Positions 15,438 to 49,501 of a stretch of 64,000 nucleotides of DNA are shown here, piece after piece. The stretch covers positions 3,947,541 through 4,011,540 of the forward strand of contig NC_016943.1 of assembly GCF_000284015.1 (NCBI RefSeq), read 5' to 3'. Position numbers and translations under genes: made by a program. Position 1 is the first letter of the stretch, and each line of letters starts with the position of its first letter. The stretch is from Blastococcus saxobsidens DD2 (GTDB taxonomy: Bacteria; Actinomycetota; Actinomycetes; Mycobacteriales; Geodermatophilaceae). Below the pieces are notes generated by a model that saw nothing but the letters and a program-made list of their open reading frames with translations, was not told the origin of the DNA and made no database searches.

Positions 15438-17171
15438 TCAGAGGGGGTAGAACGGCGCCGTGCCCGGTAGCGGCTCCGCGCCGCGGACCAGGGTCACCCA
15501 GGTGCCGCCGACCAGTTGCCAGATGCTGTCCTCCGCGCTCACCAGCGGCTGACGTGTGGGCGCGACGCCCAGCGACGTCGGCTGGCCCGGCAGACCGGAG
15601 GTGGAGACGGGCGTGAGCCCCCAGCCGTCGACGCGGACCGAGTACGGGACGATGCGGTCCTCCCCCTCGTCACCGGCCAGCACGAGCAGGGTGCCGCTGT
15701 CCGCCCAGGCGACGTCGATCACCTGCGCCAGGGTCGGCGTCACGTTCCGCAGGTCGCGCAGGACCACCGAGCCGTCCTCGTCCGAGCGCACCACGGTGCC
15801 CACGTGCAGCCGCCGGCCGTCCTGACCGTCGACGACCACGGCGGCCCGGACGCCGTCCGGGGACAGCTGCAGGACCTCGGCCCGGCCGAGGCCGGGCAGC
15901 GTGGGCGCGGCCACCGGCTGCGGCGGCCCGCCGGCCGGTACCCGGACCACCTCCGAGCCGTTCCGGACGACCCATGCCTCGGTCCGCGTGCCCGCGACCG
16001 TGGGAGCGCTGAGGGTGCCGGCCCCCAGGACCGGGGTGAGCTCCCCGCCGTACTGGCCGGCGAGCAGCGTGGCGCCACCGGGGTCGGTCCGCACGCCGGT
16101 GAGGAACGACAGCCGGCCGGTACCCGTGTCCGCCGCGATGGCCGCGCTGCCGAGCCCGTAGACGCCGGTGCCCGCGGGCCCGGGTGCCGGCTCGCCGCCG
16201 GGGAGGGTCCGGAGCGATCCCGCCTCGATGTAGTGCCCCACCCCGTCGACCGGCACGATGTCCGGGCTGAAGGAGGCCCAGTCCTCGACGGTCTGCAGCC
16301 GCGGTACACCCCCGGGGGTCACCGGCTCCCCGTCGAGGAGGACGACGACACTGCTGATCCGAGGCTGGTCGAGCTGCTGCAGGTTCCACACCAGCTGGGC
16401 GGAGATCTGGGCCAGCCTCGGGGAAGGTTCCGGCGGCAGGCCGCTCAGCTCGACGGTCGCCGTCTGACCCTCGACGGTGACCGCCCGGGTCAGCTGGACG
16501 CCGCTGAGGGGGTTGCGGACGCCGGCGGCCAACGGCGCCGACGCACCCTCGATGAGCCGCTCCACGAGCGCCGTGGGCTGCGACTCTCCCCGGATCAGAT
16601 AGCGCGGGTCCGGCACCATCCGCTGCTCGGTCGGGTCGAGGAAGTAGGCGTTCACCGGGTCGTAGAGCCGCCGGAAGTCGGGCTCCAGCATGATGAGCCC
16701 CTCCGGTGGGTTGGTGATCCGCCACTCGCCGTCGACCTGCTCCAGACGGAAGTCCCGGGTGACGACGCCGCGCTCCGCCACGGTGAACACCCCGCGGGTG
16801 TCCACGGTGCCGATCAGGTTCGCGGTCAGCGTCACGGCGCCCTCGTCCGTGGTGACCAGGGCGATGTCGGTCCCGATGACGCTGATGCCGTCGTCGGACC
16901 AGGACTCTCTCACCTGCGGGGCCAGGTACTGCCGGGCCACCGGGTGCCGGCGCACCGTGCTGGCCGCGGCGTCGATGAAGTCGCGGACGATCCCCTCGGG
17001 GCTGGCCCCGGGCTCCGGCGGCAGCGGCTCGATGCCGACCGCGTCGACGACGCGCGCCGGCGCCTGGGTGATCTGGACCGTGGGCGAGCTGGTGGGCACC
17101 GTCGAGCAGGAGACCAGGGACAGCACGGCCAGCAGCAGAGCTGCCGCCAGCGCCCTCGGGGAGCCGGTCAC
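15438..17171 (-). CDS. lpqB: Lipoprotein LpqB, MtrAB accessory protein
   Basis: The GTG at 17171 gives 577 residues; the start overlaps the mtrB stop by 4 bp (GTGA). A lipoprotein signal ends in the lipobox LVSC near residue 22. An N-terminal LpqB domain and a GerMN domain follow at about 185-290 (LIRGESQPTALVERLIEGAS...GVQLTRAVTVEGQTATVELSG), then a beta-propeller-like C-terminal LpqB domain. In mycobacteria LpqB interacts with the sensor MtrB and affects MtrA phosphorylation. Position and length fit the family. Confidence 0.93.
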   Translation of the reverse strand: MTGSPRALAAALLLAVLSLVSCSTVPTSSPTVQITQAPARVVDAVGIEPLPPEPGASPEGIVRDFIDAAASTVRRHPVARQYLAPQVRESWSDDGISVIGTDIALVTTDEGAVTLTANLIGTVDTRGVFTVAERGVVTRDFRLEQVDGEWRITNPPEGLIMLEPDFRRLYDPVNAYFLDPTEQRMVPDPRYLIRGESQPTALVERLIEGASAPLAAGVRNPLSGVQLTRAVTVEGQTATVELSGLPPEPSPRLAQISAQLVWNLQQLDQPRISSVVVLLDGEPVTPGGVPRLQTVEDWASFSPDIVPVDGVGHYIEAGSLRTLPGGEPAPGPAGTGVYGLGSAAIAADTGTGRLSFLTGVRTDPGGATLLAGQYGGELTPVLGAGTLSAPTVAGTRTEAWVVRNGSEVVRVPAGGPPQPVAAPTLPGLGRAEVLQLSPDGVRAAVVVDGQDGRRLHVGTVVRSDEDGSVVLRDLRNVTPTLAQVIDVAWADSGTLLVLAGDEGEDRIVPYSVRVDGWGLTPVSTSGLPGQPTSLGVAPTRQPLVSAEDSIWQLVGGTWVTLVRGAEPLPGTAPFYPL

Positions 17172-18889
17172 GGTGCCTCCGCCCCACGGAGCTTCACCGG
17201 GCGCAGCGGCAGCGGGGAGCTGGTCAGATCGGCACCCGCCACCAGCGGCAGGGTCAGCCGGAACTGCGCACCGGCGCCCGGCTGCCCCCACACCTGCAGC
17301 CACCCGCCGTGCAGCCGCGCGTCCTCGAGGCTGATGGACAGGCCCAGCCCGCTCCCGCCCACCGTGCGCATCCGGGAGGGGTCGGCCCGCCAGAACCGGT
17401 CGAACACGTGCTGCGCCTCCCCGGAGCTCAGGCCGACCCCGTGGTCGCGCACCGTGACGGCAGCCGCCGAACGGTTGGCCGCCAGCGTGATCTGGACCGG
17501 GTGCCCCGAACCGTGCTCGATGGCGTTCCCGACCAGGTTGCGCAGGATCCGCTCGACCCGGCGGGCGTCGACCTCGGCCAGCACCCGGTCGGCCGGCCGG
17601 TTCACCTGCACCTCGCAGTCGTGCCGCTCGGCGAGGGAGGTCATCCCGTCCACCACCCGGTCCACCAGCACCCCGAGGTCGGTCGGCGCGGAGTCGAGGA
17701 CGGCCGCACCGGCGTCGTACCGGCTGATCTCCAGCAGGTCGGTCAGCAGCGCCTCGAACCGGTCGAGTTCCGCGCGGAGCAGTTCGGCGGAGCGGGAGAC
17801 GTGCGGCGCGAAGTCGTCGCGGGTCTCGTACAGGACGTCGGCCGCCATCTGCACCGTGGTGAGGGGGGTCCGCAGTTCGTGCGAGACGTCGGAGGTGAAC
17901 CGCTGCTGCAGCTGGGAGAGCCCCTCCAGCTGGGTGATCTGCCGCTGCAGGCTGTCGGCCATGGCGTTGAAGCTGGTCGCCAGCCGCGCGAGGTCGTCCT
18001 CACCGCGCACGGCCATCCGCTCCTCGAGCTGCCCCTCCGCCAGCCGCTGGGCCGTACCGGCGGCCTGCCGCACGGGGTCGACGACCAGCCGGGTGACCAG
18101 GACGCCGATGCCCACCACGAGCAACGTCAGTGCGATCCCGCTGACCACCACCGTGCTCCGGATCAGCGACAGGCTCTCCTCCTCCTGCTGCAGCGGGAAG
18201 ACGTAGTACAGCTCGATGCGGTCGGGCCCCTGGGCGTCACCGGTGACCGGCGCGCCCACCAGCAGGCTGGGCCGGAGCTCGCCGGACTCCCCGGGCATCA
18301 GGTCGTACTTGTAGGCCTGGCTGCCCGCGTCGACGGCGTCCCGCAGCTCGTCCGGCAGCGCCCCGTACAGCGGGCGACGACTGGTGGCCGGACGTTCGCG
18401 ATCGGCCCGGTACACCATGACGACGTCGAAGTCGCCGGCCGCGCCGCCCCGGTCCAGCAGCTGGTTGACCGTCCGGGCGAGGGTGGCGCGGACGCTGGCG
18501 GCGTCCCCGGTCGCGATGCCGGCCGCCTCGCTCTGGGCGTAGACGACCCCCGCCTGCATCTGGTCGATCGCCGCCTGCCGCTTGACGTCGAGCAGCTGGT
18601 CCTTGATCTGGCTGAACAGCACCATGCTCACGATCACCACGACCGTGCCGGCGAGGAGCATGGTGATCGCGCCGATCCGCACCTGCAGCGACGACCGCCA
18701 CGTGCGGACCGTGCGGGCGACGAGACGCCGGCTGGTCAGGCGGACCCGGCGACGGGCCCGGCCGGCCCGCCGGCGCAGCCCCCGCCGGATCCGGGTGAGC
18801 TCGGAGTGGCCCCGCGGTGCGCGGCCGGTCCCCGCCGACGTCGGCCGGTCGGCCGCGGTGCCCGGCGGGGGGGTCCGGGTCGCGGTCAC
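17168..18889 (-). CDS. mtrB: Sensor histidine kinase MtrB
   Basis: This 573-residue protein starts at GTG. A basic Arg-rich N-terminus precedes TM1 (about 71-93), an extracytoplasmic loop (about 95-243) and TM2 (about 245-268). HAMP follows (about 268-320), then the H-box FTSDVSHELRTPLT with His337 as phosphoacceptor, and an ATPase domain with N-box NLVGNAIEHG and G-boxes DHGVGLS and GSGLGLS. MtrB phosphorylates MtrA and controls cell-wall and division genes. Unlike the usual arrangement, its start overlaps by 4 bp a small ORF inserted after mtrA. Confidence 0.96.
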   Translation of the reverse strand: MTATRTPPPGTAADRPTSAGTGRAPRGHSELTRIRRGLRRRAGRARRRVRLTSRRLVARTVRTWRSSLQVRIGAITMLLAGTVVVIVSMVLFSQIKDQLLDVKRQAAIDQMQAGVVYAQSEAAGIATGDAASVRATLARTVNQLLDRGGAAGDFDVVMVYRADRERPATSRRPLYGALPDELRDAVDAGSQAYKYDLMPGESGELRPSLLVGAPVTGDAQGPDRIELYYVFPLQQEEESLSLIRSTVVVSGIALTLLVVGIGVLVTRLVVDPVRQAAGTAQRLAEGQLEERMAVRGEDDLARLATSFNAMADSLQRQITQLEGLSQLQQRFTSDVSHELRTPLTTVQMAADVLYETRDDFAPHVSRSAELLRAELDRFEALLTDLLEISRYDAGAAVLDSAPTDLGVLVDRVVDGMTSLAERHDCEVQVNRPADRVLAEVDARRVERILRNLVGNAIEHGSGHPVQITLAANRSAAAVTVRDHGVGLSSGEAQHVFDRFWRADPSRMRTVGGSGLGLSISLEDARLHGGWLQVWGQPGAGAQFRLTLPLVAGADLTSSPLPLRPVKLRGAEAP

Positions 18890-19115
18890 CGGACCAGTGT
18901 CCCCCAGCCGGCGCCGGGAGTGGGGAAGCCGCCCGGGGCCGCCGCCCGTCCGCTCACGGTGCCCGCCGGTTCGCTCCCGCGGCCGGCTCCGCTCCTCGCT
19001 CGTTCCTCGCTGCGATGCTCACCGGCCTGTCCGCTCACGGTGCCCGCCGGTTCGCTCCCGCGGCCGGCTCCGCTCCTCGCTCGTTCCTCGCTGCGATGCT
19101 CACCGGCCTGTCCGC

Positions 19116-19119
<4 letters not shown>
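18886..19119 (-). CDS. Small ORF (77 aa) linking mtrA and mtrB, built from a 27-residue tandem repeat
   Basis: A GTG start overlaps the mtrA stop (GTGA, 19116-19119). The frame runs without a stop through two identical 27-codon units (SGQAGEHRSEERARSGAG and the rest) and a Gly/Ala/Pro tail, and ends in a TGA that overlaps the mtrB GTG (18886-18889). There is no folded domain, membrane segment or homology that I recognise. The duplicated DNA resembles a dispersed actinobacterial GAGCGAGG-type intergenic repeat. Translation is possible and would couple mtrA to mtrB; whether the peptide matters is unknown. It could equally be untranslated spacer that happens to be open. Confidence 0.45.

Positions 19120-19121
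<2 letters not shown>
18948..19121. repeat. 81-bp perfect tandem duplication plus 12-bp partial copy
   Basis: Two identical 81-bp units (18948-19028 and 19029-19109) are followed by the first 12 bp of a third (GTCCGCTCACGG, 19110-19121). The last piece overlaps the mtrA stop codon. The period is a multiple of three, and all copies share the same frame on the minus strand. Confidence 0.95.
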
Positions 19122-19832
<711 letters not shown>

Positions 19833-19916
19833 TCTGCGCTGAACAGGCAAGAAGGTGTCCCACCCGCCCGGGTGAGATGTCGGCGCACCGGCCTCCGCCT
19901 CCCCCGCGCGGTCCCG

Positions 19917-46654: not shown

Positions 46655-49501
46655 ATGGCTGGCGATTCGGAGGTCGGCGTGCCCATCGCACCGGTCCGTG
46701 AGACGGACCGCTCCCACGCGGCTCTGCGGCCGTGGGCGTCGCGGCTGCTCACCTCCGCGATGGTCCTGTCGGCCGTGGCCTTCGTGGTCATGACGGTGGG
46801 CAGCTCGCTGGTGGGCTCGACCTCCTTCTACGGCGGCGGGGAACTCGTCAACCACAAGCCCTGGCTGGCATACGGCCAGGAGCCGATCGAGGTCACCAAC
46901 AACACCATCGGTGACACCATCGACTACTTCATCCCCGGCCGCAGCGACATGGTCGACCGCGTCCGGGCGGGCGACTGGCCGGGCTGGAACCCGCTGCAGG
47001 GCGCTGGAGCCGCGCTGGCCAGCGTGCCGTCCTACGGACTCCTGGCGCCCCCCGGACTGGCCTGGTGGGTGCTGCCGCACAGCCTGGCCCCGGGCTGGGA
47101 GAAGCTGACGATCCTGGTGCTGGCCACCGCCGGGACAGCACTGTTCCTGCGGCGGCTGGGCCTGACCCGGCACGCCGCCTGGCTGGGCGGGATGGTCTAC
47201 GCCGGCAGTGGGTTCATGATCGCGTGGACCAACTGGCCTCAGGCGGGCGTCGCCTCGATGCTCCCGTGGCTGCTCTGGTCGGTCGAGCGCGCGCTGCAAC
47301 TGCGCACGTGGCGAGCGCAGGTTCCGGTGGCTCTCAGCGTGGGGGCCCTGCTGCTCGGCGGCTTCCCGGCGGTCACGGGACACGGGCTGTACCTCGCGGG
47401 CGGATTCGCACTGCTGCGCATCGCGACCCGGCGGATCGACGGTGCGGAGCGGCTGGGGGCAGCGCTCGTCGACGGCGGCAGGCTCCTCCTCGCCGTCGGC
47501 ACCGGCGTGCTGCTGGCGGGCGTGCAACTGGCCCACTTCGTGTACACGTTCCTCGATCTGGACACCGAGTACCGGTCCGACTCGTTCAACCGGCTGATCC
47601 CGCTGCGGATGGCGCTCACCGCCCTGTTCCCCAACGTGTGGGGCACCCGTGGGGGGGAGGGCTTCTACGCCGGGAGCGGGACGAACCCCATCGGGGCGAA
47701 TGCCTACGTCGGCGCCGCCGCCGCCGTGCTCGTCGCGGTGGCGCTCACGGTGCGGCCGGGTCGCAGGGTCCCGAGGGGGGCGCGCACGTACTTCGCCCTC
47801 GTCGTCGTCGGTGGCGTGCTGCTCGTCTACGTGCAGGGCCCGCTGCTCCAATGGGTGGGCACACTGCCGATCTTCGCCGGCAATCCGATCGGCAGGCTCG
47901 TGGCCGTGGTGCTGCTCGCCGCTGCGGTGCTCGCCGGACTCGGGTTCGACGCCGTGCTCCGGGATTCCGCTGCACCCGGCCCGGGGCGGCGACGGGCCTT
48001 GCTCGGCGGGATGGTCGCGGTGCTCGCCGTGGTCGGCGCGACCGGTGCGTGGGCGTACCGCCAGACGGCCGGCCCTCTCGACCCGGCGGGCCAGCGAGTC
48101 ATCCTCGCCGTCGCGGTCGCCGCGACGGTCCTGACCGTGGCCGCGGTCCTCGTCGCCACGTTCGGGCCGACCTGGGGGAAGGCGGCCCTGGCCGTGGTCC
48201 CCCTGGCCGTCGCCGCCCAGGCGGTCACCGCCGCCCAGCCGATGTGGGCGCAGGTCGACCGGGAGGCATTCTACCCGACGACCCCGGTGCACGAGTTCCT
48301 GCTCGACCACCAGGGCAGCAACCGGATCGCCGTCACAGGAGGCACCATGGTCAGTGGCCCGACGGCGTACTACGGCCTGCGCACGGCACCGGGGCACGTC
48401 TTCTCGAAGCCCGAGTTCAACGATCTCCGGCGGGCCGCCTGCGAACCGTGCCTGATGACCGCCACCAACTGGGTGCTGCCCCGGGAGACCGACCTGGGCA
48501 TCTGGCAGTCACCCATCCTGGACCGGATGGGCGCGCAGTACGTGACGGTCGACCCGGACCAGCAGATCCCCGGCCGGCCGGAGCCCGTCCTCGTCGGGGA
48601 CCGGGAGGTCACCGTCCCCCGGGGTGACCAGCCACCCCTCAGCGTCGAGATCCCCGGTGGACCGCTGCGCGGTGTGGTCCTGGACTTCCGGAGCGGTCCC
48701 CCCGTGCCCTCGGACGGGCACCTGATCGCGCGCGTGCTCGACGAGAACGGCCGCCTGCTGACCGAGACACGACGATTCGTCCAGTACCCCAGGTCACCGT
48801 CGCCCTTGAGCGTTCCCCTGGTGGGCGAGTCCCTCCCCCAGGGGGACGAGTTCACCATCGAGTTGTCCTGGGCCGGCACGGGTGACGCCCCTCGCCTGGC
48901 GGCCGACGCCGCGGGGCGTCCCGCCGTGACCGTCATCCGTCCGGAGGACGACAGCCTGCGGATGGTGCACGCCGAGGGGGCGGTCATCTGGGAACGCCTC
49001 GAGGTGATCCCGCGTGTCCACTGGGCCTCCTCCGCCGAGGTGATCGCCTCCCCCGCCGACCGGATCGATGCCATGGCTGCGGGGACGCTGCCCGCGGACA
49101 CGGTGGTCCTCGATCGCCCGGGGCCGCCCGCCGAGGGCGGTCCCGCGACGGTCGAGGTGCTCGAGGACAGCGGGGACCGGGTCAGTGTCCGCGTGGACGC
49201 CGACAGCGCGGGCTACCTCGTCCTGGCCGAGTCGGTGCAGGTGGACTGGACGGCGACGGTCGACGGAGCGGAGGTGGACATCGTGGCCGCCGACCACGCC
49301 TTCGGAGCCGTGCACGTGCCGGCCGGGCGCCACGACGTCACCTTCACCTACACCCCGCGGGGCGCGACCGCGGGGCTGATCGCCACCGGTGTCGGCACAG
49401 CGCTGGTGGTCCTCGCCCTGCTGCTCCCCACCCGGATGCGGAGAGACGCCATCCGGCTCCGAGACCCGCGCCGTCCCGGCCCACGTGGTGGGACGGCGTG
49501 A
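46655..49501 (+). CDS. YfhO-family large membrane protein
   Basis: This 948-residue protein has roughly 12-13 membrane segments in the first 540 residues. A large extracytoplasmic domain of about 350 residues follows, with one last TM at about 912-932. The YfhO/GT-C-like loop LAYGQEPIEVTNNTIGDTIDYFIPGR and GSGFMIAWTNWPQAGVASMLPWLLW are characteristic. YfhO is implicated in glycosylating lipoteichoic acid in Bacillus and Listeria; here it could add a sugar to a surface polymer from a polyprenyl-phosphate donor. The 260 bp upstream, divergent from the flippase-like gene, hold no further gene that I can support. Confidence 0.85.
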   Translation: MAGDSEVGVPIAPVRETDRSHAALRPWASRLLTSAMVLSAVAFVVMTVGSSLVGSTSFYGGGELVNHKPWLAYGQEPIEVTNNTIGDTIDYFIPGRSDMVDRVRAGDWPGWNPLQGAGAALASVPSYGLLAPPGLAWWVLPHSLAPGWEKLTILVLATAGTALFLRRLGLTRHAAWLGGMVYAGSGFMIAWTNWPQAGVASMLPWLLWSVERALQLRTWRAQVPVALSVGALLLGGFPAVTGHGLYLAGGFALLRIATRRIDGAERLGAALVDGGRLLLAVGTGVLLAGVQLAHFVYTFLDLDTEYRSDSFNRLIPLRMALTALFPNVWGTRGGEGFYAGSGTNPIGANAYVGAAAAVLVAVALTVRPGRRVPRGARTYFALVVVGGVLLVYVQGPLLQWVGTLPIFAGNPIGRLVAVVLLAAAVLAGLGFDAVLRDSAAPGPGRRRALLGGMVAVLAVVGATGAWAYRQTAGPLDPAGQRVILAVAVAATVLTVAAVLVATFGPTWGKAALAVVPLAVAAQAVTAAQPMWAQVDREAFYPTTPVHEFLLDHQGSNRIAVTGGTMVSGPTAYYGLRTAPGHVFSKPEFNDLRRAACEPCLMTATNWVLPRETDLGIWQSPILDRMGAQYVTVDPDQQIPGRPEPVLVGDREVTVPRGDQPPLSVEIPGGPLRGVVLDFRSGPPVPSDGHLIARVLDENGRLLTETRRFVQYPRSPSPLSVPLVGESLPQGDEFTIELSWAGTGDAPRLAADAAGRPAVTVIRPEDDSLRMVHAEGAVIWERLEVIPRVHWASSAEVIASPADRIDAMAAGTLPADTVVLDRPGPPAEGGPATVEVLEDSGDRVSVRVDADSAGYLVLAESVQVDWTATVDGAEVDIVAADHAFGAVHVPAGRHDVTFTYTPRGATAGLIATGVGTALVVLALLLPTRMRRDAIRLRDPRRPGPRGGTA

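Follow-up and report, generated by a model that had tools for sequence, protein, structure and literature searches.

A doubled 81-bp repeat between mtrA and mtrB of Blastococcus saxobsidens DD2 is probably a MIRU-like mobile element with its own stop-start relay

Introduction

Two identical 81-bp repeat copies lie within one open reading frame between mtrA and mtrB of Blastococcus saxobsidens DD2 (Geodermatophilaceae). What is this repeat, and is its open frame a matter of chance? The window analysed here is a 64,000-nucleotide stretch of the genome (contig NC_016943.1, positions 3,947,541 to 4,011,540). An earlier note on its sequence had suggested an adjustable translational spacer, a new small protein, or a dispersed intergenic repeat that happens to be open. 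We conclude that the repeat is, in all likelihood, a small non-autonomous mobile element resembling the MIRUs of mycobacteria, which inserts in coupled stop/start overlaps and carries its own relay.

The mtrA-mtrB locus

On the minus strand the order is mtrA, a 77-codon frame (the link ORF) and mtrB, and two repeat units plus 10 nt of a third fill most of the frame. The features are as follows, in window coordinates.

19116..19850, minus strand: mtrA, response regulator, upstream gene (NCBIfam MtrAB_MtrA, 379.6 bits, cut-off 300; Pfam)
19116..19119, minus strand: GTGA, the mtrA stop TGA overlapping the link-ORF GTG (sequence)
18886..19119, minus strand: link ORF, 77 codons, GTG start, from the mtrA stop to the mtrB start (ORF list and frame in relatives)
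19039..19119, minus strand: repeat unit 1, 81 bp (Tandem Repeats Finder and unit search)
19102..19108, minus strand: covarying inner stem of unit 1, 5' arm GGCCGGT (pair counts, 93 subtype A copies)
19062..19068, minus strand: covarying inner stem of unit 1, 3' arm GCCGGCC (pair counts, 93 subtype A copies)
18958..19038, minus strand: repeat unit 2, 81 bp, identical to unit 1 (Tandem Repeats Finder and unit search)
18948..18957, minus strand: GTGAGCGGAC, 10 nt of the third unit (sequence)
18896..18901, minus strand: GACACT, candidate -10 element of a putative leaderless mtrB promoter (six bases before the mtrB GTG)
18886..18889, minus strand: GTGA, the link-ORF stop overlapping the mtrB start GTG (sequence)
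17168..18889, minus strand: mtrB, sensor histidine kinase, downstream gene (NCBIfam MtrAB_MtrB, 656.5 bits, cut-off 450; Pfam)

The start codon of mtrA is uncertain, with an alternative at 19832. Tandem Repeats Finder reported a period of 81 and 2.2 copies at 18944-19121, and a search with the unit itself gave 100% identity to one copy over 81 bases and to the other over 78. The 12 bp of a third copy that the earlier note had counted are accounted for by the 10 nt of GTGAGCGGAC and two matching bases before unit 1, and its minus-strand ORF of 77 amino acids, with GTGA overlaps at both the mtrA stop and the mtrB start, is present as described. A further 4-nt GTGA overlap joins mtrB to the next gene (17168-17171, minus strand), so that successive overlaps tie the operon together from mtrA on; that gene (15438-17171) is nearest to LpqB and scores below the cut-off of that NCBIfam family. 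The motif GACA[AC]T stands six bases before the mtrB GTG in most junctions of the genus and may mark a leaderless mtrB promoter. Where its form is GACAATG, the ATG also opens a three-codon frame ending on the mtrB GTGA.

Dispersal and open frame of the repeat

The search for further copies that the earlier note proposed returned at least 45 matches to the 81-bp unit in the source genome (4,875,340 bases, single contig; E up to 0.001, partial matches counted). The unit occurs in all 23 genomes of the genus, with at least 1 to at least 53 matches each, these counts being lower bounds with 39 candidates scored per genome. Scanning GTDB contigs with the 33-nt core gave at least 117 loci; among the matches listed, 75 of 80 titles are Geodermatophilaceae; Skermania, three metagenome bins and an unverified Bacillus account for the rest. 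With four candidates scored in each, a sample of 200 genomes from the order gave a match at 1e-6 in 42. Nineteen of these belong to the family; in the others it is mostly just the core that matches.

In f2, another family of the order, three genomes carry the core at 89-95% identity over 34-37 bases. Their elements (L341-L347) have nearly the same core and different ends, and are sited between co-directional genes; the upstream stop was called ATGA at L341, L342 and L347, and a target duplication is visible at L341, L342 and L345. In a further family (f41; L348-L352, L356, L357), a related unit forms tandem arrays whose periods range from 78 to 84, and in most of them ATGAGT precedes the core.

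Among 51 distinct units, selected via their 5' part, the link frame is open over 24 codons in 50 and over 25 codons in 49. The other two sense frames are closed in 51/51, which is uninformative because the selection pattern carries a TGA in each. The stronger case against chance comes from the placement of the elements and from the relatives, which weigh more than the open frame.

Placement of the repeat on stop codons

Gene contexts were taken from a codon-usage gene caller trained on the window, which makes starts approximate and frames firmer. Among 119 elements or arrays from the at least 117 loci, 92 have a same-strand stop no more than 60 nt before the core, against 1 in a mirrored control that is weak where the next gene is co-directional; 18 have no such stop and 9 lie inside called genes. 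The favoured distances from stop to core are 17 nt (32 cases), 12 nt (12), 15 nt (9), 5 nt (7), 1 nt (6) and 51 nt (6).

Subtypes A and B were separated only by GG before the core, and A thereby includes related units from other families; the mtr copies belong to subtype A. The subtype A stop reads ATGA, GTGA or TTGA in 57/61 cases, compared to 53/222 for the control, which consists of repeat-free co-directional gaps of 20-230 nt at the same loci. Where the next gene is co-directional, a strict relay leads from the upstream stop to the next frame in 41 of 50 subtype A copies vs 31 of the 222 control gaps. Of these 41, 22 run through a separate link ORF and 19 through an N-terminal extension of the next gene; the remaining copies comprise 2 with a relay via CTG and 7 with none. 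Subtype B differs, with CTGA as the stop in 18/31 and a strict relay in 7/23.

Under a loose count the control gaps have a relay in 80/222, and 86/222 are in class 1, the frame class that is the commonest among repeat-free gaps as well. In the source genome alone, repeat-free gaps of 20-230 nt show a loose relay in 13/33 and class 1 in 19/33 and are thus closer to the repeat junctions than the 222-gap control is. The description as a dispersed intergenic repeat holds, whereas "happens to be open" does not: the elements sit on stop/start overlaps and mostly keep the relay.

Frame of the mtrA-mtrB junction across the family

The mtrB start region was recognisable in 93 of 112 publicly available family genomes and 88 junctions were usable, after exclusion of G060 (contig edge) and of L094, L098, L118 and L122 (no mtrA). 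With any start codon allowed, mtrB lies in class 1 with respect to the mtrA frame at 78/88 junctions, in class 0 at 7/88 and in class 2 at 3/88, counts that are not independent, the genomes being related. A walk in NTGA steps from the mtrA stop reaches the open mtrB frame in 82/88 junctions, or in 74/88 when CTG on the mtrA stop is disallowed as a start. The 82 relay junctions have 39 spacer lengths, from direct overlap up to 226 nt; the relay passes through two link ORFs in six genomes and is a direct overlap in one (L095).

The relay is not intact in L017, L018, L019, L021, L022 and L114, so coupling is not indispensable. A stop lies inside the link in L019 and L021, and L017 keeps the repeat yet has an in-frame stop behind it. 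The earlier note had proposed comparing the frame across relatives and had named as contrary a repeat out of frame or with stops inside it: frame class and relay are kept at most junctions, and the contrary outcome is confined to a minority, these six.

A core is recognisable at 10 of the 88 junctions (relay in 9) and not at the other 78 (relay in 73). Since most of the frame-holding spacers are coreless, part of the bias belongs to the junction and not to the repeat. No such bias appears between ahcY and mtrA in the 23 genus genomes (classes 9/7/7, relay 5/23); this gap was used in place of a control query at 48899-49498, which was uninformative, its gene being found in 2/23 genomes. Shuffled spacers in random frame gave a relay in 37.5/86 under the loose count. 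Across the class, 15 of 18 usable mtrA-mtrB junctions are in class 1, many of them from one genus with a 1-nt gap (29 new loci out of 109 genomes matched, 11 without a usable mtrB frame), and the class 1 relation in such distant relatives indicates that it is partly ancestral. The frame bias is telling because it persists across many spacer lengths.

Empty and filled sites at other junctions

Three further junctions, with gene names assigned via NCBIfam, provide sites with and without the repeat. At nuoD-nuoE, 20 of 23 genomes have a direct overlap (17 NTGA, 3 TGATG); two carry inserts of 77 and 80 nt with the repeat core, a third carries a 77-nt insert without a recognisable core, and the frame relay is intact in 23/23. 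The coreless insert (L328, G019), which keeps the relay, is perhaps a decayed or a different element. A histidine kinase-response regulator pair found in 14/23 genomes has 12 NTGA overlaps and 2 junctions with the repeat, with a relay in 14/14. The pdxH-transporter junction was found at 24 loci in 23 genomes: the GTG overlapping the pdxH stop shares the frame of the next gene in 12 genomes, full elements are present in 6, and remnants or short spacers in 5. In one genome this junction contains two units of 83 bp, and each unit provides a link ORF of its own. The relay is kept at 23 of the 24 loci, the exception being L312, where the homology match begins only at residue 111. At all three junctions the repeat-free relatives are mostly directly overlapping, and the filled ones keep the relay through the link frame.

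Comparing the left and right NTGA flanks of 29 copies gave a modest excess of agreement over mismatched pairs at positions -5 to -1. Target duplication is clear in single cases (L342, L341, L224); at L342 the eight bases before ATGA are alike on both sides. One mobiliser family was tried, the Y1 transposase PF01797, and it was found in 0/23 genus genomes while 5/14 control genomes were positive. A RAYT as the mobiliser is rejected for these 23 genomes.

Stem structure and tandem copies

A 7-pair stem surrounds the core in both subtypes, with changes on both sides. For the subtype A inner stem, 508/651 cells are paired over 93 copies (shuffle maximum 427), with two of the seven pairs forming in only about half of the copies; for subtype B the values are 344/399 over 57 copies (shuffle maximum 293). 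Sliding the stem partner reduces pairing in both subtypes. Subtype B also has an outer stem, with 320/399 cells paired vs a shuffle maximum of 225, whose 5' arm is at the end of the upstream gene. At L130, L146, L149, L159 and L173, all subtype B, the 3' arm covaries as if the element had been inserted into a terminator-like hairpin or ended the transcript. Subtype A has no terminal inverted repeat, the best outer register being 0.52 paired.

The fold of the doubled mtr region is no more stable than shuffles (z 0.51). Rfam gave no match for window positions 18600-19400 at E up to 1, and none at gathering score for seven repeat loci.

The 81-bp doubling occurs at mtrA-mtrB in three genomes of three genera, apparently independently, and the number of recognisable cores there is 0, 1 or 2 depending on the genome. 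Of 29 tandem pairs, 15 belong to subtype A: nine have a period of 0 mod 3, six one of 2 mod 3, and no pair has 1 mod 3; the corresponding numbers for subtype B are 2, 7 and 5. When the insert length is 2 mod 3 the link stays separate, whereas a tandem period of 0 mod 3 fuses the units, as in the window, where 81 bp are 27 codons and the two units thus form one link ORF. The 81-bp doubling is best read as a recent tandem duplication that stayed in frame. The idea of a spacer that keeps coupling through copy-number change is therefore upheld as architecture, by the three 81-bp doublings and by subtype A periods that are 0 or 2 mod 3 in 15/15 cases.

Alternative explanations

One rival reading is a mobile repeat that inserts at DTGA as a neutral passenger, with mtrB translated from a leaderless mRNA or from its own start signals and the link ORF without effect. 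The sequence GACA[AC]TGG-N4-GTG before mtrB at most genus junctions fits a -10 element with GTG at the first base, and the relay is broken in six of the 88 family genomes; against this, the frame class is kept in 78/88, the 82 junctions with a relay span 39 spacer lengths, and many junctions of other genera with an intact relay have no GACA motif before mtrB. We regard this reading as conceivable but doubtful. A functional small protein, expressed from the link ORF alongside MtrA and MtrB, is very improbable: the link frame is indeed open in 50/51 units over 24 codons, but it has no Pfam or NCBIfam match, its codon-position entropies (0.86/0.93/1.03) indicate little protein-level constraint, and the spacers of relatives shrink to 4 nt and in one case to a direct overlap. 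The earlier note's suggestion of a new protein is accordingly abandoned.

A role for copy number in adjusting mtrB, as a phase-variable spacer, would agree with the 0, 1 or 2 cores at mtrA-mtrB, with doublings in three genera and with tandem periods in subtype A that are never 1 mod 3 (15/15); the comparison spans species and not one population, and we consider this reading unlikely. Similarly unlikely as a general account is an RNA structure element, a processing or stability hairpin at gene ends in place of coupling. The covarying inner stem of both subtypes and the outer stem of subtype B at the upstream gene end speak for it, and this reading may well be true for subtype B; the mtr region as a whole folds no better than shuffles, no Rfam family matches, and DTGA and the frame are left unexplained. 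We therefore retain the MIRU-like mobile element as the preferred explanation.

Comparison with known repeats

Supply et al. are said to have described the mycobacterial interspersed repetitive units (MIRUs) in 1997. The MIRU two-component junction is senX3-regX3, whereas here it is mtrA-mtrB. MIRUs are described as units of 40-100 bp occupying 41 sites in the chromosome of M. tuberculosis H37Rv; one intergenic region is long where it contains the repeats, and other mycobacteria mostly have between a few bases and some tens of bases there (PMC2734929). A review describes an ORF inside the MIRU that is coupled to its neighbour at -4 spacing, together with signs of mobility and an occurrence in a two-component operon (PMC12548453). 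The repeat studied here is similarly short and present in tens of places (at least 45 matches to the 81-bp unit, including partial ones). It resembles MIRUs in the architecture of coupling (strict relay in 41/50 subtype A copies, 31/222 in the control), in mobility with insertion at start codons, seen here as empty and filled sites at three junctions, and in tandem copy variation, which here is between species only. It differs in its host, Geodermatophilaceae and not mycobacteria, in the covarying stem around the 33-nt core, and in having a second subtype that carries an outer stem and is found mostly at CTGA stops; the likeness to MIRUs is one of design.

REP and REPIN sequences, associated with RAYT transposases, are short stem-forming units scattered mainly outside genes. 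The present repeat is also dispersed and short with a stem, but the Y1 transposase is absent from 23/23 genomes, and the elements lie on coding-strand stop/start overlaps with an open frame. Bacterial MITEs are short and non-autonomous, as this element appears to be, and in single cases it shows signs of target duplication; subtype A lacks the terminal inverted repeat, and subtype B has a covarying outer stem. Among the literature matches listed, there was no report of such an element outside mycobacteria. The insertion principle is already published for MIRUs; the present analysis adds the host family, the core sequence, the covarying stem, the comparison of empty and filled sites with its outcome for the frame, and the mtrAB frame bias.

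Proposed mechanism and significance

The element would target DTGA stop/start overlaps of co-directional, translationally coupled genes, probably moved by an enzyme. An insert would come to have NTGA at both ends, probably aided by a short target duplication, and with the open frame between them the upstream stop and the downstream start would be preserved. A ribosome ending mtrA would re-initiate on the link ORF, translate its 77 codons, terminate on the mtrB start and re-initiate once more, and in the source genome the unit would since have been doubled in tandem. Insertion would do little harm because the element brings its own stop-start relay. A leaderless promoter of its own is a plausible alternative route to mtrB expression in the genus, in which case the relay would be redundant there. 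The relay may also affect the MtrA:MtrB ratio.

For annotators, ORFs of this kind with 25-80 codons may be link frames and not genes. The idea that MIRUs spread at coupling sites with low harm comes from mycobacteria; orthologous sites with and without the element now support it in another family, where the frame is kept in nearly all cases and the element appears at a conserved regulator pair, mtrA-mtrB. The same gene pairs with zero, one or two links form a natural experiment on termination and re-initiation. More tentatively, such elements may belong to a class of mobile DNA, nearly translation-silent, that is wider than mycobacteria, whose niche across the order would be start-stop overlaps, to which it adds frame-matched link cistrons; at mtrA-mtrB, a relay locked in frame and free in length might then set the ratio of kinase to regulator throughout the family.
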